From contig MU832582.1 of assembly GCA_029204225.1 (NCBI GenBank), positions 1 through 64,000 of the forward strand: 64,000 bases of DNA, in the 5' to 3' direction. The stretch is from Diphasiastrum complanatum (lineage: Eukaryota; Streptophyta; Lycopodiopsida; Lycopodiales; Lycopodiaceae). Below are positions 20,936 through 45,480 of the stretch, piece by piece; position 1 is the first letter of the stretch; each line of letters opens with the position of its first letter. The notes beneath the pieces were generated by a model, which did no database searches, had not been told where the DNA came from, and saw nothing but the letters and a program-made list of their open reading frames with translations. The translations under genes were made by a program, and so were the position numbers.

Positions 20936-22885
20936 AAAGAAGCACACAAGAATTTTTGTGCCATCTTGAATTTGAAAGTCAAGGCATTCAAGGATCTATC
21001 CTCTCCATCCCTTATCTCATGGCTAATCTAGATCCATTCATTTGTTGTATGTAAACACTTGTATAGTCACATACTCTACAAAAATACAAAGGAATCAATA
21101 ACAACGTTCTGTTGACACTACCGAACTATCAAATTGAGTATCATAATCTATTTTGTAGTCATTATCAACTATTCGACCATCATCATCGAAACTATCAGCA
21201 ATCTTCATTGACTATTCGAGTCACACTTTTTAGAAGAGTTCTTGCACCCCCCCTAATGGAGACAATGGAATTCTTATTTATACAAGAATGCTAATTGCAT
21301 CTTGAATAAATTTACAAGACTCTTTGATAGTAGTGACTACTACTAACAAATATGTGGTTAGCTATAGTAGAACCTCCGTTGAAAGACTCTGTGAAAAAGA
21401 ACATCATTATTGTTGGTTGTGAAGTTCAATATTCATTTCGACCTTGACTCAAAGGTGAAGTTGTGGTGAACTGGTCTTTGGCTTCTACTTGGTTCTACAA
21501 CAAATTTTAGAGAAAATATCAATGCAATGTCCACTTCCTTAAATGTTAGCCCAAATTGATGTATGATAGTGGTTACCAGCCCCTTTTTGCAAGGTGCAAC
21601 TTAGAAATTTTCACTATAGACTAGCAAGTGCCCCTAAGCCACAACAAGTCTCTATACAACCCACTACACTTATTCCCTAGTTCATTTATCCTTGCAAAAT
21701 TCACACAAGTTCCTTTCCATGTGAGATGGGTGTCATTAAGTAAATAAAACCTAACAATAGAATTTATATTTCTCATTCCTCAAAAATATCATCTCACTTA
21801 GAGTTGGGATTTTTAGTAGTCAATTAGCCTTCAAAGTTTTCTCCAAAAAACAAGAATTTATGTGGTCTAATCACACTTTGAGATCTTTTCTTGCATCCTA
21901 GCATTTCCCTCCATTGTTTTTAATCCTTGGAAATATCCTATCACATTTATTTCATACCATCAACAAAAGTGGGGGTAGATTAGAACAAGTAGTATTTGGT
22001 AACTTCATCTATAGTTTCAAGAAGTGAAAAGAGGAGAAAACTGCCAAGAGAATGAATAACATTTGGCGTTCATGTAGATTCATGTACATGGACAAGGGAA
22101 ATTGTAGAATAAAGTACAACATTGGCATTCTATACTATGATCTCAAGTTGTAGCTTAGTTATATCTATAATTTTCAAGAAGTCTATTGTTGACCACATTG
22201 GGTATTCATGTTCCACCTATATTTATTGGTTCGCACTAATCTATCACAGGCCATTAATAATCTAGATTCTATCTGGTACTCCTAGCTACATACATCTCTT
22301 GCATATATTACAAGTTTTTGCAAGTGAGGATGGCAACCAATTGTCCTTTGATCCTTCCTAGCTAAACTCAATAGTAAATGTTCTTGTCATTGCCACATCA
22401 AATATTATTTTTCCCAATTTTGTTTTGCCACATTCAATACTACTTTGTTGCAACAACGAATATTTTATCTTTTCCCCCTATATGTACAACAGAAACGCAT
22501 ATGATTTTTGATTTTTATTAGTCCACTTGCCTATCCTGCCGTATATAAGGACCACTAATTGTTGAATATGTATGCAAAAAAAAAAATAATTATGATAATT
22601 AAATTTTTAAGACATCTTGATTGTGACGTACTAATTTCTTTGAAGTCTAGCTATGAAAATCAAGGGCAACCTTTGGTAGTGAGAGGATTTTGGTCCATAA
22701 AAGTTTGAAGGTTTCAAAAGGGAAAGTTGTTTCTAAAACCTACATGCCTAAAAAAAAAACTCCAATTTTGAAAGGACACTCTAGGGAAGTTGCCCCAACA
22801 TTGCCCGCCCCCATTGGCCAAACACTTGACGCTGCCATTGGCCCAACACTTGTTAAGACAAACTAAAAAGTTTAGATGAAGTTCA
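20936..22885. other. Region between copia scrap and LPAT gene
   Basis: The first few hundred bases may be the decayed 3' LTR of the copia scrap. The rest is AT-rich without a recognised gene. A TATA-like CCGTATATAAGG lies near 22,540, about 350 bp upstream of the LPAT open frame; it is the only promoter-like element I noticed there, and nothing shows it is used. Confidence 0.4.
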
Positions 22886-23257
22886 ATGATTGGTGCTCGG
22901 GTTTTCCAAAAACCAACCACCCTCCCAATTGGCTCACACTTGCCTCACATTCCATTCTCAACTGTTTCAAACTACCAAGTAGGACCCCCCCACCCCCCTC
23001 TTCATCATCCACCACGACCACTTTATTTGCTCCAAGTAGCCCACAAAAGTGACATGAACCTAGGGTCTCGTAGATTGCTTGTTGGTTGGTGCCTTGGAAG
23101 TTGGTCCTGGGGCCTGGCCTTGAGAGCAGTTTTGTTTAGCAGCTTCTGGGCAGCGCTGGGACCCTGGGTTGCTGGCTGGTCTTGCGTGGGGTCGGAAGGA
23201 TCGTGCCTTGTCTCCGATGGATGGATTGATCACGCCATCGCTGCTGCCACAAATCCC
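22886..23257 (+). other. Open upstream frame / probable 5' leader of the LPAT gene
   Basis: In frame with the acyltransferase and without stops, but Pro/His-rich at first, then Trp- and Gly-rich (possible starts at 22,886 and 23,054). The region is GC-richer than its surroundings and other frames are open too, so absence of stops is weak evidence for translation. Confidence 0.4.
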
Positions 23258-25913
23258 ATGGGAGATTCCACGATCCAACCTCTGCAGATCGATTCTATTT
23301 TGGGGAAGAATATCCCGGACAAGACCGAGGGATGCATTGCTTCTGAGGGCAGTAGCGTTGGGGGCACTGCTGAATGTGCTGATGGGTTTGGGCAAAGGAA
23401 GGATGAAGTGGTGATCTATGGTGGAAGAGATTTTGATAAGATGTTGAGAAAATCGCTCGGGAAGGATGGATCCGGGTTTGTTGATAGATTTGTAGAATCT
23501 GAAGCGCTGGGGAAAGCGAGCGAGGACGAAATCCAGCTATGGAAGGCGCAGCTTCTTGATGATGGTGAGGTTATGGGTGGGAGAATTTCCACCAGGGTTG
23601 ATGATAAGAATGGAATGGCTACTGAAACCACCAACCTCCTGGCAGGGCATTCTCACCGTCCTTTGACAGCTTTAATGGCAATAAGGGGATTGTTTTGTCT
23701 GCTGGTGCTGGTGTCGACGTCCTTTACGTTGCTGGTGTTTCTTGCTCCAATTGGCTTTGGGCTTGCACGCTTCTTCAGCGTGCACCTTGCGCGGGAAATC
23801 AGTGCTTCCGTTTTTGGAAATTGGCTCTCCATGTGGCCTATTTTGATTGAGAAGATAAATCAGACAAAGGTGATCTTTGCGGGTGATAGAGTCCCCAAGG
23901 GTGAGCGAGTATTAGTGCTCTGTAATCATCGCACAGAAGTCGATTGGATGTACATATGGAACTTGGCCGTTCGCAAAGATCGCATTGGGTATGTTAAATA
24001 TATGTTAAAGAGCAGTGTTCGTAACTTGCCCATCTTTGGATGGGGCTTCCACATCCTTGAGTTCCTCTTTCTTGATAGAAAATGGGAAGTTGATGAACCT
24101 GCCATCAAGACGTATGCCTCCAGCTTCAAAGATCGAAGAGATCCATTGTGGCTGATTCTTTTTCCGGAAGGCACAGATTTTACGTAAGGAATTAAGGGTC
24201 ATATTTGCTTTTAGCTTACCATCCGAGCCACTGTTAAAAAGTTATGTAGAGAAGGTTCATATATTCGCATGTTTGCGATCTTGTTTTTTGTGAGGACCGT
24301 TTTGATCAGGCCTAAGACTTTCTGTTTACTTTATGATATAATTTTGTACAGTAAGAGTAATTTTCGACCTAAGGTTGCTCTTCTTGCAGAGCAACCAGAA
24401 ACAAAAAGTTTCAGTGTTTCGGGTCATAGCTGTCGATGCTAATCATGAACTACGTGCATAGTTTCGTTTCCCGCTCACATGTATAATATACACTAGGAAA
24501 GCGGTTCATTAGCAGCGCAAGTAAGACTGCGAATGTCAACTGTTATGGCAATCGAGATTGGGTCCTTATCTTATGGGATAAAATTCTGCATTTATACATA
24601 GAAGAAATTGTTTTGCTATCAAGCACGACTTTGCTTTTTCCTGCTGAAATTAAATTTTCCTACCAATTGCTGACACTGAATAGCCTCTGATTCAAGAAAG
24701 TCCGATTTAAGAAAGCAATCTGCACCTATAGATCAAAATCCAGGAGATTACACCATGTTACAAATTAGAGCCACAGGAGCAAGCTCAAGTCATAGTATCC
24801 AGTTCCGTAAAATCCATAAGTTCACGTAAATCTCATGGTGTTACATTTGAAATTAGCTGTTTGAAAACTAATAAGCTGTTTATGAATTTGGATAGCGCTG
24901 GAAACCTTTTTAGCCCCAATATTAATTTGGCATTTACCTTTTTGAATTTTGAATAAGGGAAGGTTGATTTCCAAGATCCCTTTCCTTTTGCAACCGATTT
25001 TGTAACACCATGGGGTGCATAATCTCCAATTGCTATAGCTTTTGCTCATGAGTCTTTTCCTTAAGATTCTGTTGACTGATTTGCTGAAGGTTTTTGTTTT
25101 GATTTTACAGGGAAGCCAAAAGGGTGAAAAGTCAACACTTTGCAAAAATGCATGGGCTGAAAAAGCTCAATAATGTTTTACTACCTCGCAGTAAGGGTTT
25201 TGTCGCCTGTCTCTCACATCTTCGGCAGTCCTTGGATGCAGGTGATTTTCCTCTTATTTTTTTGTTGTGCATGTAGTTTCTCTTTATTTCCCGTTTGATG
25301 ATGGTCTGCAATCACTTTTTGTACTTGTCGTTGTTATATAGGAAGGTGGTATGTAGGAACTTTCACGAGTTTGATTAGTTTGTTTAGTTTGCTGTCCCAT
25401 TTCGGTTCTGTATCATTTTATTGGGTCCCAAATATGTGCATTTTCTGGTTATTCCATTTTAATCTTGAGGCTGCTTGTGCATGCTTGACCTTTTCAGTTT
25501 ACGATCTTACCATCGGATACAATTACCGATGTCCTTCGTTTCTCGACAACTTGTTTGGAGTTGATCCGGCAGAGGTTCACGTCCATATTTGTCGCATTCC
25601 TTTGGCTGAAATTCCCATAACAGAGGATACAAGTTCAGCATGGCTTCAGGAAATTTTTTACAAAAAGGATCAATTATTGGACGTTTTCAGGAAGGATGGT
25701 TGTTTTCCCAATAGTGGAGTGGAACGAGATCTAGACATTAGAGGTTATTCCTTTACAATACTTGTCATGTTTGTTGTCACTATCATGTTCTTGACATTTG
25801 CCTTCTCATCAAATTGGATTAAAGCTTATGTGGCTTTCAGTTGTGTTTACCTCACCATTATCACATACATCAATTGGAGGCCCACACCATTTTTTACACG
25901 AGGAAGAAGTTGA
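23258..25913 (+). CDS. LPAT4/5-like: 1-acyl-sn-glycerol-3-phosphate acyltransferase, LPAT4/LPAT5 type
   Basis: Transfers an acyl chain from acyl-CoA to lysophosphatidic acid to make phosphatidic acid, in ER membranes (family knowledge). Exons: start-24,183, 25,111-25,241, 25,498-25,913; introns of 927 and 256 bp with GT-AG ends and matching phases. The PlsC domain carries NHRTEVDW (catalytic His224 and Asp229 counted from 23,258) and FPEGTDFT across the first splice. Hydrophobic segments precede it (RPLTALMAIRGL onward), and two more close the C terminus (FTILVMFVVTIMF and after). From the ATG at 23,615 the protein is 371 residues, the usual family length. The frame is also open upstream: ATG 23,258 (chosen; CCCATGGG context) gives 490 residues, 23,054 gives 558 and 22,886 gives 614. 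Function is sure; the start is not. Confidence 0.9.
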
Positions 25914-26925: not shown

Positions 26926-27555
26926 TGTGTACTTTTCACACGTGTGAGGACATCTCAAACAATGTGATTGATCTTCTAAGGTGTGTGTGTGATTGCACAT
27001 AGATCTATCATTCAAAAGATACAAGCTATCTAGCTTGAAGAATATAAGGCAAGAGCACTCAATATATGCACCTACATTCATCATTGAACGTTCACAATGA
27101 GAGGCAACGGATGAAAAAAACTTAGTATGAAAATGGCTTGCTCTTGGGTCAAGAGAGAATACAACATGTAGCTCTCGCGTAGAGAGAATGTCAAGAAAAA
27201 ACTAAGTGTGTTGGCTCTCACTCCAAATTTCTAATCAGACAACAGTGTGGACTCAATCACACTCACACTTATAGTAGCTCGAGATCCATGAATAGTAGCA
27301 ATGAAGCTCAATGATTGGACCTCTCTAGAATCACCTCTTGCATTGATTGGAGCACTCCTACATCACCTCTTAGTGGTCAAATGAGATTATGAGGTGCAAT
27401 GTCACTAGCCCTCTACCATCAAGCCAAGTGTGAGCAACCTACACTATTACAAGCTAATCAAAGTCTAAATTTGGCCTAATCACTTTATTACAATGGGTGG
27501 TTTTGACATAGGACCCCCAAACCTCAAGATAGATGGCTTTTACAATTTTCACACA
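26926..27555 (-). mobile_element. 3' LTR of a minus-strand copia element
   Basis: On the minus strand it begins TGTGAAAATTGTAAAAGCC just after a purine tract (AAGGAGG) and the end of a copia RNase H (27,565-27,740), the right order for a 3' LTR. CACACGTGTG lies at 26,937-26,946, near the far end. The sequence is clearly related to 49,519-50,006: shared blocks include GTTGATCTTCTAAGG-like, CTCGAGATCCA and GTCACTAGCCCTCTA. Confidence 0.65.
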
Positions 27556-27564
27556 CCTCCTTAA

Positions 27565-27740
27565 AAGATATCTATGTACTTCAACATAGATCAGATCTAA
27601 ACTTGAAGAAAGCGTTCTTGAGCAATGGTTTTGTGAGAAGATCGGCAATACATGAAGACGATCCAATCTGCTCCAAGATGATCTCTCTTCCAATGACTTT
27701 CTCCCTTATGTAATGTTGTCTCGCTCGGGTTCTCTTTGTA
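27565..27740 (-). pseudogene. Ty1/copia RNase H C-terminal fragment
   Basis: Minus strand reads RTRARQHYIREKVIGREII, then IADLLTKPLLKNAFFKFRSD, the typical end of copia pol. Only this tail remains; upstream pol is missing to the right. Confidence 0.7.
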
Positions 27741-27900
27741 TATTGGAGTGACCTCCACTTTCAACCACACAATTGCAGTGCCACAATATTTGGAAAAGCC
27801 AGTTGGCTACTGGGACATTATGCTGGAATGACTACAATGACAACTGGCTTACTGATAAATTTTGCCAGAATTACCACTTGGACAGCTATCACTTTAATGT

Positions 27901-28042
27901 CAATTGACAGCTGGCAGTAGGTTATTTAAAAAAATTAAAAAATAAGACAATTGACAGCTGGCAGTAGGTTATTTAAAAAAATTAAAAAATAAGACAATTG
28001 ACAGCTAGTAGTAGGTTATTTTAAAAAATTAAAAAAATAAGA
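27901..28042. repeat. 47-bp tandem repeat, 3 copies
   Basis: Units begin at 27,901, 27,948 and 27,995. Each has CAATTGACAGCTGGCAGTAG followed by an A/T-rich half. The third copy carries a few changes. Confidence 0.95.
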
Positions 28043-28199
28043 CAAATGATTAATTTAATAACACACAAATTAAATGTAATTTAAAATATTGTAGCCATTT
28101 GCCTGACTATCTAAATTAAAAAACAATGCTCTAGAACCTAACTAGTTTTTTTTTTGTTTTCTAAACATATTTCTTAACAAGAGAGTACTTTAGCCACTA

Positions 28200-28560
28200 T
28201 ATGCCATGTTTCAGCCATGATATACATAAGAGGAGATTTTCAAAAATACTTTTCGAAGAAAAGCAAAATTTTTAGCTACTTTTAAATGTGTTCAGTAGCA
28301 ATGCTCCAACAAAAAGAACAGCATTCTGGAAAGCATGTTTTGTAAGCGTTCCATAACATTATGCAGCTGTGAAATTTAGAAGTTGAGTTTTAGCCATATA
28401 TCCATCATAATATACACGAGCAAATTTTCATAAATACTTTTCGAGGAAAACATAATTATTTTGAACTACTTTTCACAATGTTATGTAGGAATGCTCCAAC
28501 AAAAAGGAGAGAATTCTGGCACGCTCGTTGCATATGTGTTCCGTAACATTGACATACAGT
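28200..28560. repeat. Diverged ~189-bp tandem duplication
   Basis: Blocks TACTTTTCGA and AATGCTCCAACAAAAAG recur 188-190 bp apart (28,246/28,434 and 28,300/28,490). Each copy ends at GTTCC-TAACATT. No coding content. It borders the recombinase-like locus. Confidence 0.8.
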
Positions 28561-28756
28561 ATCTCTAAGGAACCTTAAACTTTCAATAAAAGAAAAAAAT
28601 ATTATAACATAATTAAACAATTAATGTTCTCAAAAAAAAAACCATGATATTGTTTGTAAACTCAACAAAATGTCGTACAAAAATGATGTTCAGTTATGAC
28701 GAAATCAGTTCCTCTGTAGATGATTTGAAATTACCAAAGCTGTCTAAAACTAAAAT

Positions 28757-30144
28757 CTACTTTTTGCTCAAATCTTTTAATATTCCTGTGGCCACACTGG
28801 CATCTGAAACATTGAATGTGATATGGCAATTACTAAGATTCGAAAAAGTATGTCTGACACTCACGTGTGTACTATTCACTGAAGGTGGAGATACTAAGCG
28901 AGACTTGTAATACTTTTCAAAAGCATCATCAACAGCCTTAATGTTTAATGGGTTACACCAAAACTCATCATCATGATGAAGATTGAGATTGTTTGCATCA
29001 CGAGAAACATCCACCAAAGGATGCTTAACTTCCCTAGAAGCATCATTTGAAGAAGATGGAACACCAAAATTTTCTGCAACAAATTTTCCCTTGAACTGTA
29101 TCGCGATATGTTTGTCCATCTCAGCAGCCAACGCATCCTGAAATTTATTTTCATTACCAGAAATGATGCGCTGCATTGCATGCTCTTTAATGCCCATGTT
29201 ATCTCGATCATACTTGAATTCCAACAACAAATAAAATTAGTCATAGACAAATAAACATATAGCTAAATGTAAAGCCCAAACTAATTTAGCTATATGTCAA
29301 TTCACAATTTAGGAATAATCATTGCATCTGACAAATGAGAGTTTCTATTTTCCAACTACATCAGGTGAATGGCTGGCGTCTAGATAATTGAATTCCATAT
29401 TTTGATATACATAAGTTGATACAGATTTTGTGATTGTTGGTGCTACACTCATTGCTCTATCATGCGCAGAGCATGTATGCATAGCTTTTGAGTTTCTTAA
29501 GTTGCACTTATTCTTGAAGTCATGACTAAAATATGGCTCTTCACCAAAAGAAGGTATAAGTGGAGTGGTAAGAATATACACAGAAAAAGCCATACTAGTA
29601 TCATCTGGGATCATATGAGTATCAAGTGAGAATCGCTCCACTTCACCTGAGAGGTAAACTCAGGTTGAACAATCTGTGTAGAGAAACACAAAACAAAACA
29701 AATGACATAATTAAACAAACTTACTTCATGTATGCGCGAACATCGTGATGACCAGTTATTTTCATGCCACATTCTGTAGGGACTCCAGCATAATTCAGCC
29801 TATTTATACCAGCAACACATCCAGATTTATTGCTAAATACACCCACAACTCCGAATTGAAATAGCATGGACTTCACCCACTTTGATAAAGTGCATTTCCC
29901 AACTCAGTATAAAATAAGTGAATAAAAGCACATCTCATACTATATTTGAATTCGTACGATTAAAATTGGTGTTAAAAACAAAGCATGAGGTGGCGGCTCA
30001 TCATTATCCCAAATAGGATGATTCCCAATTAAAGCTTTATAAGTCACAACATCACTATGATAACAATTCAGGTCGTCTTCTCTTTTCTCAAGAGCACAAT
30101 GTGCAATATCCAGCTTGTAATTTTTGGAAGCATCTTGTGAGGAC
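28757..30144 (-). pseudogene. Tyrosine-recombinase-like gene or relic (Crypton/ZMYM-type fold)
   Basis: Minus strand, three coding segments: about 30,144-29,958 (ends PPPHALFLTPI), 29,902-29,725 and 29,219-28,757. Segment 2 reads SKWVKSMLFQFGV, FSNKSGCVAGINRLNYAGVP, TECGMKITGHHDVRAYMK; segment 3 opens YDRDNMGIKEHAMQRII. This matches the C-terminal catalytic box of tyrosine recombinases: an H/K-x-x-R position, then TGH, then Tyr nine residues after the His. The Arg position is Cys (TGT, one C-to-T from CGT), so this copy is probably inactive. Segment 3 ends in a 155-residue tail without recognised domain. Splice phases as I read them are off by one base at both junctions, so either decay or wrong boundaries. 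A 98-codon ORF (29,345-29,641) lies in the second gap; it may be an extra exon. Confidence is moderate for the fold, low for the gene model. Confidence 0.5.
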
Positions 30145-31296
30145 CTAAAACCAAAAAAAAATCCAAATTACCATGTGAAATGATGGGGCAAGGGAGATAG
30201 AAGAACGCGAACGGAGAAGAGAGCAGGAATATTGCGGAACAGCTCTCTCATTGTAATCGGCTGCTAAATGCAAAAATAGTCTAATAGACAGCTTATGCTA
30301 AATGTAATCACAGCTTTAAGTGTTCTAATTGCCCAACAAGACCTTTAAAAATTAATTCATACTTTGAAACAAGAGTACAGTCCACCGAAAAGATTAGAGA
30401 TGGCTTGTATGTGGTAGAACTGAAATCAGATTCAACGTGAAGTATAGTTCTGAAATAAATGGAAGAGCAGTATGATAACGTGAGTTCCTCAAGCGTCAAA
30501 GATAGCCATCGTCTGATCAGAAATTGAGGAGTCATAGACGTCCGTGTTCTAATTAGAGTGAGTAAACAAGCGCGATCAAACAACAATGAAGGTGCATTCA
30601 ATCACAACAAGCATTCATCTACGTTGTACACAGATAAAAACAAGCTCCTGTTATATTACACTGAAGCACAATAAAAAATAGCAATTACAACAAAAAATGA
30701 CGGCTTCATTGGGAAGCTCAAATAATGTGTCTCATGGACGGAGCAACCCGTAATCTGTGCTTGGATGATCTATTTATAGACTTCATCTATGTATTAATTA
30801 CATTGAATGCTTGTCACCTAATTAGGAAAGTCATTGTACTTGGAAGTATATGGCTTATGTGACAACTGGTCAATAATTTAGCATCGTTGACGCGGATGAG
30901 GACATCGCTGGAACGTTTCTCATTTATTTGAGACAACCTTCGGAATTTTCTCTCTCTTCACATTTTTCACAAGAAGCCGAAGATGCCCCATAAAGACGGT
31001 GATGTCTTTAAAACAGCTTAATGCATGAATATAGATGACCTTAGGGATTTTCTCTCTCTTCGCATTATTTGCAAAGAGCTGAAGGTGTGTTAAAAGCAAT
31101 TAAACTTTTGAACTATATAAGTGTCGCATTTTGGGAAAATGCGAAAAAGCCGAAGTTGTTGAAAATATAGTGTATTTCTGCAGACTGTTGAAAAAGTAAT
31201 GTATTTCTGCAGACTGTTGAAAAAGTAATTTATTTTTGTAGACTTTGTTCTAAATGCAAGTTTTGTGGAAGTCCTTGAAGATGGCCAAGTCTTCAG
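30145..31296. other. Upstream of recombinase-like locus
   Basis: No family recognised. A 97-codon minus-strand ORF (30,308-30,601) could be an upstream exon of the recombinase-like gene, but nothing in it identifies it. From about 30,900 onward TTTTCTCTCTCTTC and GCCGAAG-like blocks recur, suggesting old repeats. Confidence 0.4.
31160..31240. repeat. 29-bp tandem repeat
   Basis: TGTATTTCTGCAGACTG plus TTGAAAAAGTAA occurs twice in a row, and a third partial copy follows with TTTATTTTTGTAGACT. Confidence 0.9.
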
Positions 31297-32016
31297 TCAC
31301 ATTGTGAAGACACCATATACCTGTATCGCGGCAGTCTCTTGTATACGGTACTCGGTCACTGGCAAGTGCTCTCGTCGATCTTTGAAATGGCCCCAATGAC
31401 CATCCTTGTAAAATCCTCCTGAACACAAGAATGCAAACAAATCGATGGGAGGTTGCATAGGACGTGGCTCGGAGAGTACCTTAAATATCAGTTGTGCCAA
31501 AATGATCATGGGCACATTGTACCAAGCTTTTTGTTGTGATTTTCTTTCTTTGTTCATCTCTATGTCCATCCATCTACAATCTTCCGGGGGCATGTGTTTC
31601 AGGATTGTCTCTTTGTTGGACAATCCGAACTTTTGTAGCATAAAAATGTCATGTGCTAAGGTATGCGGCACATGGATCTTGGTCAACCTACAAATAACGA
31701 TGTAATGGGTTAGAATAGAACTTGATGGATTGCAACATGATGGCAACACAAACTTCGACAATAACTTGTTCATCCCATCAAGTGCTAGAATAAGCTCCCT
31801 CTCTTGAGTAGGAGCAACTTCCAAAAATGTGCACTCAACTCGGATGTGCTTTTCCTTCGCATTCGAGAATGCTAGTACCACAAATGAGGCACACATTTTA
31901 GATTGACCGCGCAGAATAAGAGAGAGAGCCCGTAGAATGGGAGAGAGAACATCGTGATGTTGTGGGGGCGATGAGAACGTCACGATGTCATGGGGGCGAT
32001 GGGAGAGGATCTTCAT
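31297..32016 (-). CDS. Hypothetical protein, 239 codons
   Basis: The longest uninterrupted ORF in this part of the window outside microsatellites. It starts MKILSHRPHDIV, has a Leu-rich N-terminal half and a mixed C-terminal half (PEDCRWMDIEMNKERKSQQK, PPIDLFAFLCSGGF). I recognise no domain. Composition is not repetitive and the opposite-strand frame is shorter. It could be an orphan gene, a transposon-borne gene fragment or a chance ORF; no neighbour suggests a role. Confidence 0.35.
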   Translation of the reverse strand: MKILSHRPHDIVTFSSPPQHHDVLSPILRALSLILRGQSKMCASFVVLAFSNAKEKHIRVECTFLEVAPTQERELILALDGMNKLLSKFVLPSCCNPSSSILTHYIVICRLTKIHVPHTLAHDIFMLQKFGLSNKETILKHMPPEDCRWMDIEMNKERKSQQKAWYNVPMIILAQLIFKVLSEPRPMQPPIDLFAFLCSGGFYKDGHWGHFKDRREHLPVTEYRIQETAAIQVYGVFTM

Positions 32017-32984
32017 GGTGGGATATGGGAGAGGAGTGTTGCCTCTTTTTTGTTGTTCAGTGGGCCATTGGTAGAGGAGCGTCTTCTACAATGCAGCATG
32101 GGAGCATATGTATGATTTCTTTCTTGAATCATTGTGATTGAGATTCAGGTTCATTGGTAGGTCGACGGCCACTGGTTGTGCCTTTTTCCTTTGCATTTTC
32201 TTGATGCTATTGATCTACTGTGGTTTGTTGTTGATTGGCGCTTTATCCTACTATGGTGTTTGGATTGTGTCGCCTTGCCTCTTGTTTGGTGATGGTGGTG
32301 GTCTAACAGTTATTCGTGGCTTGTGTTGGCTACTGGATGTTGGCCCTATTTGTGAAGATTTTATATGGGAACGGCTTGTCTTCCTTACTTGCTTTTGGCT
32401 TATGTTTGTCGCTTTTGGTGTTTCTCACTCTATCGCTTGGTTTGCTACGATTTTCTACTGTCCTACCATGTCATCTGAAATGGTATGGCTCTCTGAACTA
32501 TACCAAATTATCTGGAAGGAATAAGGAGGCACTTATCTATTTTCATTGCTTACTTTCTGGTTGGTAGGAGTCGTCTGTGAGAAAATGAAGTAATTTAACA
32601 GTATTTCAAATCACGTACGTTATTTAAGGTCATGTCTAGAAAGGCAACTTATCGAGAGAAGAAACAAGACAAAATATTATAGATTCTAAATGTTTCCTTA
32701 CCCATTACCTAGACTTGTTCTCAGTCGTAGGGCTATGAACACTATATGAGATTTGTATATGGATTCCTTTGTTATTATCTTGTTTAGAACGTAGATCCAG
32801 CTAGCAGTTGTTTTGGTCAATATTGACATGTTTTGTGGGAAAAAGCATCCATGGGCTATTTCATCATCTGCTGCATCTGGCCAGATTAATTAATATCTTG
32901 AATGCTGGCAACCATTGACCGAGCATATTGAAGATATTCGCTACATCATTGAGTTGTAATAGGGTTCGGGAGGAGATGACACAA
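32017..32984. other. Unclassified DNA
   Basis: Overlapping + strand ORFs (128 and 83 codons at 32,138-32,567) encode Leu/Phe/Cys-rich strings typical of T/G-rich noncoding DNA; I do not treat them as genes. Nothing else recognised. Confidence 0.45.
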
Positions 32985-33546
32985 GTGGAGTTATGGCATA
33001 AAAAAATTAGACCATCCTAATCTTCAAGCAATGGAATCCAAGGTCTCCAAGGAGCTTTCTCTCGGCCTCCCCAAATCATTCTCAAGATGTGGCAAAGGAT
33101 GTGAGGCTTGTGGCCTTTCAAAGTCTCATAAGGCATCCTACAAGAGATCCTTGACAAGATCTACCTCTCCTTTAGATCTCATTCATTCTGATGTACATTC
33201 CTTTTCACATGAAAGTAATGGAGGTGACTTAATGTATGTGATTTTCATAGATGATTGTACTAGATTTACTTGGATAGATTTATTGTCAAAGAAGAGTCTT
33301 GTATATGAAGCTTTTGTGAAGTTTAAATCTCTTGTTGAGAAGCAACTTAGTTCTAATATACCCATTTCCTTTTGGAAGGAAGCTATTACATGTGCTAGCT
33401 TTTTCTATAATAGGCTTCCAAGTAATGCTATTGGTGGGATCTTACCATATCAAGCTTTGTATGGCAATAAGCCAAATGTAAAAGATTTAAAAGTCTTTGG
33501 ATGTATTTGTTATGTCCATTTTCCTTTGGAAAGAATACCGTTTTAG
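32985..33546 (+). pseudogene. Ty1/copia integrase fragment with internal deletion
   Basis: Begins with the gag-pre-integrase zinc region (LWHKKLDHPNLQAMES; one extra A in a run near 33,000 shifts the frame), then CGKGCEACGLSKSHKASYK. The integrase core starts at DLIHSDVHSF and MYVIFIDDCTRFTW, so the first two catalytic-region Asp blocks are present. After KFKSLVEKQLSSNI it jumps to ISFWKEAITCASFFYNRLPS and LYGNKPNVKDLKVFGCICY. The part with the catalytic Glu is deleted, yet the frame is kept across the join. No RT follows. Confidence 0.85.
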
Positions 33547-43429: not shown

Positions 43430-45480
43430 GCCTTTGACAAGCGGGTACATCACTGTTATACTACAACTAGATTCTGTGACTGAGCCATTGCATATAGATT
43501 TGTAACCACATGAATCCTTGCCAAACTGAATCTCTGTCAGATAGTATCAAACTAACATTCAATATAGAGAACCATTGCTGAAAACGCTATCAAGCTTCCA
43601 TTGTGATAGCCAAGTAGATGCCATCCGTAGTAGAATCATTCATGAGAGATCCTACTGCAACATGGCTAGTCATTGGTAAGCAGATTCTGTGAGGCAGAAT
43701 CGTTGCTAGCTGACAAAGAAAATGCTTCAGCTAACAATCAAATCTTACATCTTTGATGGTCTTGATTTGATTAGTTTCTGACATGTACAACTTGTAGTAT
43801 GATGAGTGTACATCATATCCAACAAGAAAACCTTGTTCGACTTTATCGTCCAGCTTCTTCCACTTCTTGTCTGGTATGTGTGCATATGCTACACATCCAA
43901 ATATGTGAACATGAGCTAGACTCGACTTGCTCTTCCACCAAACTTCGTGTGGTGTGGTATTTGGAATGCCATATTTACCTATTCTGTTTTGCAGATAATT
44001 GGCTGTAGCTACTGCTTCAGCCCATAAGATCTTTGACGCTTTGTAGTAAGCCATCATGGATCTTGCAACTTCCATGAGTGTGTGGTTTCTTCTCTCAGCA
44101 ACACCATTGTGTTGTGGTGTATAGGCTGCGATCTTCAAGTGTAAGATTCCACGCTCGCTGCAGAAATCAATGAATTGGTTGGAGATGTATTCTCCACCTC
44201 TGTTAGTTCTTAGCTGCTTCACTTTCTTATCGGTCCATTTATCGGCCCGGTTTACAAACTCTATAAACCTATCAAGTGCCTCAGATTTGTTTTGGATAAA
44301 GTATACAACAGCAAACTTGCTAAAGTCACTCAATAAATGTGATGTAGTATTTTGAACCTCCAAGTGAGACTACGTCGAAAGGTTCATAGATGTCAGAATG
44401 TATCATCTCCAAGAATTCTATTGTCTTTAATGCATCTCTTGTGAAGGTGTTCTTGACATCTTGTCTTTGTTACATGCTTCACAAGACTTTAGACTGTTTG
44501 TGTCTTTGATGGTTGCGCAAGTAAATACTCCGTTCTGATTGGCCTTGTATAGAGCCATCGTATTCATATGACATAGTCTTCTATGCCATAAGATATCAGT
44601 GGACTCGTGAATCTGGTGTGCTTGTTCAGTTGGAACTCGTATCTTCAAATGGTACTAGTTGTCTTGGAGCTTTCCATGCATGATGATGTGAGTGTTGTTC
44701 GCTTCGGTTCATTCACATGAGTCATCTGCAAAGGTAACCCTCATGTCTGCATCAACCAACTCGAGACAAAAAATAGATCCTTTTGAAGCGGTGGGACATA
44801 TAGCACGTTGTGAAGCTTCCTATCTTTGTCATTGGCATACAACCATATTCAGCCTATTCCACTGATCCATCTCCCGGAATGATTTATTTGGAGGAATCCA
44901 TCTAACGGTAATCAGCGATCATGTGCTTGTGGTCACAAAATGTGACGTAGCACCAAAGTCAAGAATCACTTCTTGTATATATGTTTGAGATGTGGTGCAC
45001 ACTTCGGTGCATAGGTAAGTGAATGGGTGTTTGTCGCTCTTCAAGGGCTCTGGCTCATCTACATATGATGAGCTGTTGGAGGGCTCCTTCCTGCTCTGTG
45101 TCTTCTTGCTTCTTGGGTTCTAAAAGTAGTCTATGTTGCATGACCCTTCTTATGACAGTGTACGCATTGAATGTTTGGATTTAACCAACATGTATCAACG
45201 ATGTGACCGTCACATCTGCATCTGACACAAAACTTCTTGTCACCATCTTGTTGTTTTTGCTTTTCATCTTTCTGATGAATGTCATGAGAAAGAAATAGGC
45301 TTTTCATCTTTCTGATGAATGTCATGAGATCTTTGCCATCCCAGCATAGGTATGTGAGTTGATCTTCCACAGGGTCTTTGAATGATGAAGCTTTCATACC
45401 ACTGATGGATCAACCCACTCTGACTCCACTGTTGGATATTTGAGAGATGAGGGACGATTGAGGCACTCTGACTCATGTTA
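43430..45480 (-). pseudogene. Ty1/copia gag-protease-integrase fragment
   Basis: Minus strand, right to left: gag tail (DGKDLMTFIRKMK) and zinc-knuckle Cys clusters CVRCRCDGHIVDTC and CVHCHKKGH (45,131-45,397); a protease relic (LDFGATSHFV, near 44,940); the pre-integrase H/C region (ILWHRRLCHMN, SCEACNKDKMSRT; 44,427-44,648); and an open 210-codon integrase frame (43,731-44,363). The integrase shows LRTNRGGEY, where NRGGEY marks the second Asp region with N for D; AAYTPQHNGVAERRNHTLME with the conserved Glu; and LVGYDVHSSYYKLY. Weak sequence follows to about 43,430. RT and RNase H are absent. A 40-bp tandem duplication (TTTTCATCTTTCTGATG; 45,261 and 45,301) disrupts gag. Confidence 0.85.

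Follow-up and report, generated by a model that had tools for sequence, protein, structure and literature searches.

Cryptons, which one review counts among the subclasses of DNA transposons (PMC11630846), are patchily spread over fungi, animals and stramenopiles according to Kojima and Jurka (2011; PMC3212892), whose Table 1 gives elements of fungi, animals, oomycetes and a diatom, and none of a plant. The same account places a Chlamydomonas sequence in its tyrosine recombinase (YR) tree and mentions a DUF3504 gene in the mitochondrion of a green alga. It describes short terminal direct repeats for the fungal and stramenopile elements and their absence from the animal groups; the animal Cryptons are depicted there as lacking both terminal repeats and a C-terminal domain, and CryptonS as conserving a region at the C terminus and often bearing TATGG at the ends (PMC3212892). 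CryptonV, a cnidarian group, has been noted in microsatellites (PMC8869645), and an automatic table of transposable elements for Dracaena records 24 Crypton pieces with a total of 1,719 bp (PMC6294377). We found no described Crypton, DUF3504 or YR family of plants, ferns or lycophytes in a literature search that covered subscription journals thinly, and the newness of the family reported here is unproven.

The locus under study lies in a window of 64,000 nucleotides from the lycophyte Diphasiastrum complanatum (bases 1-64,000 of contig C1064, 71,127 bp), and is very probably what remains of a land-plant DNA transposon of Crypton-like type, now dead. As read from their frames, longer relatives in the same genome would encode, in about five exon blocks, an N-terminal part, a YR domain and a tail. 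The YR domain of these relatives contains Arg I in FFxRGAxEL, a Lys in SKN, a K-x-x-R box, the His and the Tyr, and the conserved C-terminal tail comprises about 150 residues. The corresponding features of the window are as follows.

About 27,711-30,181, minus strand: 5'-truncated copy of a Crypton-like element, its 3' end near 27,711, the homology of relatives stopping near 30,181
About 29,964-30,144, minus strand: exon A, SSQDASKNYKLDIAHC...HALFLTPI, a DUF3504-like stretch (tblastn with exon A of relative L046, E 1.3e-11)
29,725-29,902, minus strand: exon B, the catalytic box, with K-S-G-C and TGH
29,817-29,819, minus strand: Arg II codon in exon B, TGT (Cys) in the window copy
29,750-29,748, minus strand: His codon of TGH in exon B
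29,214-29,724, minus strand: phase-2 intron between exons B and C, donor AA-GTAAGT at 29,725/29,724, acceptor at 29,214
28,757-29,213, minus strand: exon C, with the putative catalytic Tyr and the conserved C-terminal tail, up to the stop
29,212-29,210, minus strand: putative catalytic Tyr codon in exon C
27,711-28,756, minus strand: 3' non-coding region, common to other copies, terminating ..ACAACATTA
27,901-28,049: 47-bp tandem array within the 3' non-coding region of the element

The motifs from which the initial annotation had proposed a recombinase can all be found on the minus strand: one frame (29,903-29,721) holds KSMLFQFGV, FSNKSGCVAGINRLNYAGVP and TGHHDVRAYMK, and another (29,236-28,757, with a stop at its end) holds YDRDN and the tail. 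The last bases of exon B are ATG-AA, followed by GTAAGT, and the first of exon C are G-TAT-GAT-CGA. The inferred splice would yield TGHHDVRAYMK-YDRDN, and it is with this phase-2 intron removed that the Tyr stands nine residues past the His of TGH, as had been claimed. L051, a relative without the intron between exons B and C, reads TGHRNIKTLERYDR, and another relative, L052, reads TGHMSREGYMRYN; because of these two sequences and the alignment of the family onto XerD Tyr279, the Tyr at His+9 is the likely catalytic residue. A second Tyr at His+6 (VRAY) was considered for this role and dropped, since L051 and the XerD alignment point to His+9. The 3' region of the element also contains a 160-bp unit in two copies about 75% alike (28,203-28,360 and 28,393-28,550), and similar matches to this unit are present in other copies of the element.

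Three lesions show that the window copy is dead. It is truncated, its homology to relatives ending inside the intron that precedes exon A, and no counterpart of the relatives' N-terminal and Arg I exons was found in the window. Its Arg II is replaced by Cys (CGT to TGT), and the acceptor of exon C at 29,214 is AA in the window haplotype, where it is AG in the haplotype represented by contig C9. The stretch from 27,000 to 32,595 is 99.5% identical to a stretch on C9 (L031), so C1064 is, from this identity, probably the other haplotype of that region. Between 27,600 and 30,300 the two contigs show three differences, namely two substitutions and one 2-base gap, the acceptor change being among them.

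About 1.8 kb from the 3' end of the element lies a host-like acyltransferase gene (22,880-25,913, plus strand), split over two frames and matching PF01553 (1.9e-16) and PF16076 (1.2e-16). On the other side, an open frame of 262 amino acids (31,297-32,085, minus strand) has no Pfam match at E<=10 and is also present in the C9 haplotype, and a repeat at 32,025-32,962 is 83% identical, in inverted orientation, to sequence lying 5' of the element in L032/L033. Pfam identifies copia fragments at 32,980-33,546 and 43,731-44,369. A further one, at 27,588-27,719, was recognized by eye from its likeness to the copia frame of L034, and because it adjoins the 3' end of the element, the insertion may have taken place within or next to a copia element.

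Searches of the window's own genome (1,744,706,496 bases in 5,176 contigs) bear out the initial annotation's expectation of a multi-copy family. The tail gave 49 matches at E<=0.001 and the exon B catalytic box 90 at E<=0.1, 53 of which reach E<=0.001; an exon from a distant member gave 53 matches, among them the window locus at 40% identity, and the Arg I exon of L046 gave 120. The rows from the tail (49), the box (53 at E<=0.001) and the distant member (53) group into 113 clusters. Contigs C1-C23 account for 94 of these, with at least one on each of 22 contigs, and the other 19 are on smaller contigs, some of which look like second haplotypes. When the Arg-I-exon matches were paired with 89 exon B rows, which took in part of the box and distant-member matches, a same-strand exon B match lay no more than 3 kb downstream for 37 of the 120, the order being wrong in one pair. 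Given the 49 tail and 90 box matches, and 37 ordered pairs against one misordered, the motifs exceed chance, and the window gene is, judged by its sequence, a member of a multi-subfamily YR family. At 20 of the 37 paired loci both the Arg-I-exon and the box match are free of stops, although three of the 20 (on C19, C3147 and C4601) seem to be a single locus represented on extra contigs as well. The live members that had been postulated find support as far as these stop-free matches and the past selection suggested by dN/dS, and no further. A C-terminal motif resembling FxNLxNCxIxLNVxD(A) is shared by the subfamilies (for example in L041, L043 and L046). One scan of prokaryotic genome contigs returned no relative.

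The profile search that the initial annotation had recommended succeeded with relatives and failed with the window: no YR model of Pfam matched the window exons, alone or joined, and the case for a YR therefore rests on the relatives. The joined exons of L046 match PF12012 (DUF3504) at E 5.8e-7 and 30.1 bits (cut-off 29.7), over positions 2-156 of the 162 in the model, and at 2.9e-7 in a second scan. Run blind on the genome, PF12012 gave 12 matches at E<=1, one of them above the cut-off; five of the 12 are at family loci and, when the tables are compared by eye, another four have an Arg-I-exon match no more than 0.5 kb away. This model matched none of 14 control genomes. PF00589 (Phage_integrase) matched L051 at 3.6e-4, which is under the cut-off, and over the whole genome gave three sub-threshold matches, the top two being the L051 locus and its second copy; all 14 control genomes matched this model. 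Among seven members scanned against Pfam at E<=1, two match DUF3504 and one Phage_integrase, the other single weak matches being to DAHP_synth_2 (0.051), Phage-tail_1 (0.088) and Retrotrans_gag (0.21). In the PHROG scan of the seven, the integrase families phrog_1 (1.1e-5, two members) and phrog_216 (7.9e-4) were matched, as was phrog_17808, of unknown function, at 2.8e-4. L052, alone or with its exon A, had no match in Pfam.

Aligned by hhalign to XerD, XerC, lambda Int and Cre, family profile A2 gave P 3.4e-4 and profile A3 gave P 2.1e-3 (a third profile, A1, includes short filler). The HH-suite probabilities of 38% for A2 and 13.2% for A3 are low by the usual yardstick; 30 column-shuffled controls of A3 did not exceed 0.6%. 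The profile alignment sets the family's Lys, Arg II, His and Tyr on His244, Arg247, His270 and Tyr279 of XerD, which we take to be its catalytic residues. The family resembles XerC/XerD, lambda Int and Cre in the aligned positions of Arg II, His and Tyr, its Lys standing where XerD has His244, whereas identity to these proteins is 12-17% over 75-77 columns and carries no sign of direct descent. Against the PDB (177,635 sequences), two profiles returned one match each, both to YRs and neither significant (2a3v, IntI4, E 0.65; 3nkh, an integrase, E 0.072), and L051 alone returned RPB5, which is not a YR, at E 1.1.

Where the H/K-x-x-R box of a YR is expected, the initial annotation had seen a block of small residues; in most relatives this block is rather a K-x-x-R box (NKTGR, NKSGR), and in the window copy it reads K-S-G-C. 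Across 13 chosen rows the His is kept throughout and the preceding Gly in 11; twelve rows have the Lys of K-x-x-R, L041 showing Gln in its place, and ten have Arg II, which is missing from the window copy, L022 and L017. The Tyr codon is TAT at 11 of 13 loci (a second, short row of L017 being dropped from this count), the near-identical duplicates L032 and L033 having TGT, so the TGH and Tyr residues are indeed conserved among homologues, as the proposal had presupposed. Seven loci show the Arg II codon: it is CGT in L034, L040 and L012, TGT in the window copy and L037, and CAT in L022 and L017; L016 is deleted there, and another two loci do not extend across this codon. TGT and CAT fit the two expected products of CpG decay of CGT, and the earlier view that the Arg-to-Cys change marks a dead copy therefore holds. 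The Arg I exon reads FFIRGASELRRL in L046 and FFVRGAKELRNL in L034, a putative Arg I being read here by position and by likeness to the motif xLRxSEL; L047 has lost this Arg. A YR domain with R, H/K-x-x-R, H and Y is accordingly found in relatives, and the window copy has neither the Arg I exon nor, with its Cys, Arg II.

The copies of the family are dispersed and have defined ends, the 3' end being well seen and the 5' end in subfamily 2 alone. In the window copy, L034, L032/L033, L016 and L012 (inverted in the last), 3' homology ends within 3 bp amid differing flanks, and the terminus is ..CATTA(TG) in most of subfamily 1 and TATTA in L016. Subfamilies 2 and 4 have 3' ends of their own, that of subfamily 2 lying about 0.55 kb beyond the last frame of L046, and a 5' end common to L042 and L046 is located 43 bp ahead of the ATG. 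No inverted repeats were detected in six of six stretches by blastn at E<=0.01, a search that very short ones would escape, and no terminal direct repeats were found, with 5' ends visible in few copies, all of subfamily 2. L032/L033 is internally deleted, its last intron directly adjoining the first exon block. In L012, the stretch 675-1120 (gene orientation), upstream of exon B, duplicates the element's 3' terminal region in inverted orientation, owing either to a rearrangement or to a nested copy.

Pairwise dN/dS ratios for exon C, calculated without a significance test, are 0.28-0.31 between the window copy and L035, L036, L037 and L040 of other subfamilies. Against its five closest relatives, L032, L033, L034, L038 and L016, the window copy gives 0.91-1.52. 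The split is not cleanly two-class: the window copy gives 0.55 with L012, 0.36 with L022, 0.41 with L017 and 0.76 with L023, and seven other pairs span 0.29-0.89, including the close pairs L035-L036 (0.49), L036-L037 (0.34) and L034-L032 (0.57), and L035-L040 (0.89). Most simply, active masters would have been under selection and inserted copies would have decayed, for the most part neutrally, the decay part being drawn mainly from comparisons with the window copy. The common 3' end, the lack of inverted repeats by blastn and the dN/dS of the window copy, about 0.3 between subfamilies against about 1 to its closest relatives, together make up the pattern of a transposon.

With Cryptons (CryptonF, S, A and I) the family shares a YR as the sole enzyme seen, dispersed copies in which no terminal inverted repeats were found, an internally deleted copy (L032/L033) and similarity to DUF3504. 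Unlike the listed Cryptons, it resides in a land plant and has several introns, one of which separates His from Tyr in some subfamilies, and it has K-x-x-R. Its tail is conserved, whereas in the published descriptions the animal Cryptons have none and CryptonS has a form of its own; none of the terminal direct repeats known from Cryptons of fungi and stramenopiles was detected in it, few 5' ends being seen.

The same data bear on whether these loci could instead be a domesticated, YR-derived host gene family of the kind of KCTD1, ZMYM and KIAA1958, with the window locus as its pseudogene. The similarity to PF12012 (in L046) is common to the family and to the DUF3504 genes KCTD1, KIAA1958, ZMYM2/3/4, QRICH1 and WOC, dN/dS between subfamilies is low, and some of the 20 loci that are stop-free over Arg I exon and box could be host genes. 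Such an origin is nevertheless improbable in view of the numerous copies scattered over 22 of the contigs C1-C23, the 3' end held in common amid different flanks, and a window dN/dS near 1 against the closest relatives. Furthermore, the DUF3504 genes are conserved animal genes without catalytic residues, whereas this family is multi-copy and most of its members keep them. According to Kojima and Jurka (2011), no DUF3504 gene preserves the catalytic site (PMC3212892), contrary to the initial annotation, which had ascribed the catalytic layout to ZMYM and KCTD1 as well.

It is decidedly improbable that the locus derives from a YR retrotransposon, DIRS-like or other, reduced here to its YR end. 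Elements of the DIRS type also carry a YR, and the ALOG domain has been taken to suggest that streptophytes encountered a DIRS-like element (PMC3537659), but the ends of subfamily 2 in L042 and L046 enclose only the frames of the YR gene among the open reading frames listed (judged by eye in two copies). No reverse transcriptase or DDE transposase was seen among these listed frames, again by eye, and the copia frame near L042 falls outside the element ends.

An integrase gene from an endogenous large DNA virus is very improbable, even though endogenous large DNA viruses with integrases are described from crustaceans (PMC10871703): two scans of viral contigs, both reaching close relatives only, returned no relative, the window frames searched included no viral hallmark gene, and the identified neighbours in the window are the acyltransferase gene and copia fragments. 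Of the three readings that the initial annotation had left side by side, the Crypton-like element is thus favoured, the viral one losing ground for want of a viral gene beside the window copy and the domesticated one through subfamily copy number and decay. Chance resemblance within decayed, intron-like sequence, which the failure of the window exons alone to match any YR model might have suggested, is refuted by the genome-wide family and can be dismissed with near certainty.

If the Crypton-like element moved as other YR systems do, its Tyr would attack the DNA at the element ends, the element would exit as a circle, and this circle would enter a short matching target by recombination, no inverted repeats being involved. 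Beyond the identity of the window copy, we incline, by a modest degree, towards the idea that the lycophyte lineage has an old and diversified Crypton branch of its own, multi-exon and with a conserved tail, in some subfamilies of which His and Tyr are spliced together, and with up to 20 open loci, some perhaps mobile or host genes. In those subfamilies His and Tyr would be joined only by splicing, and movement would therefore depend on the splicing machinery of the host. Should this be true, the host range of Cryptons would be extended by a diversified land-plant family, which would bear on whether these elements are ancestral to eukaryotes or have moved between kingdoms, and plant YR proteins would be possible raw material for new host genes, a role that YR proteins have played in animals.
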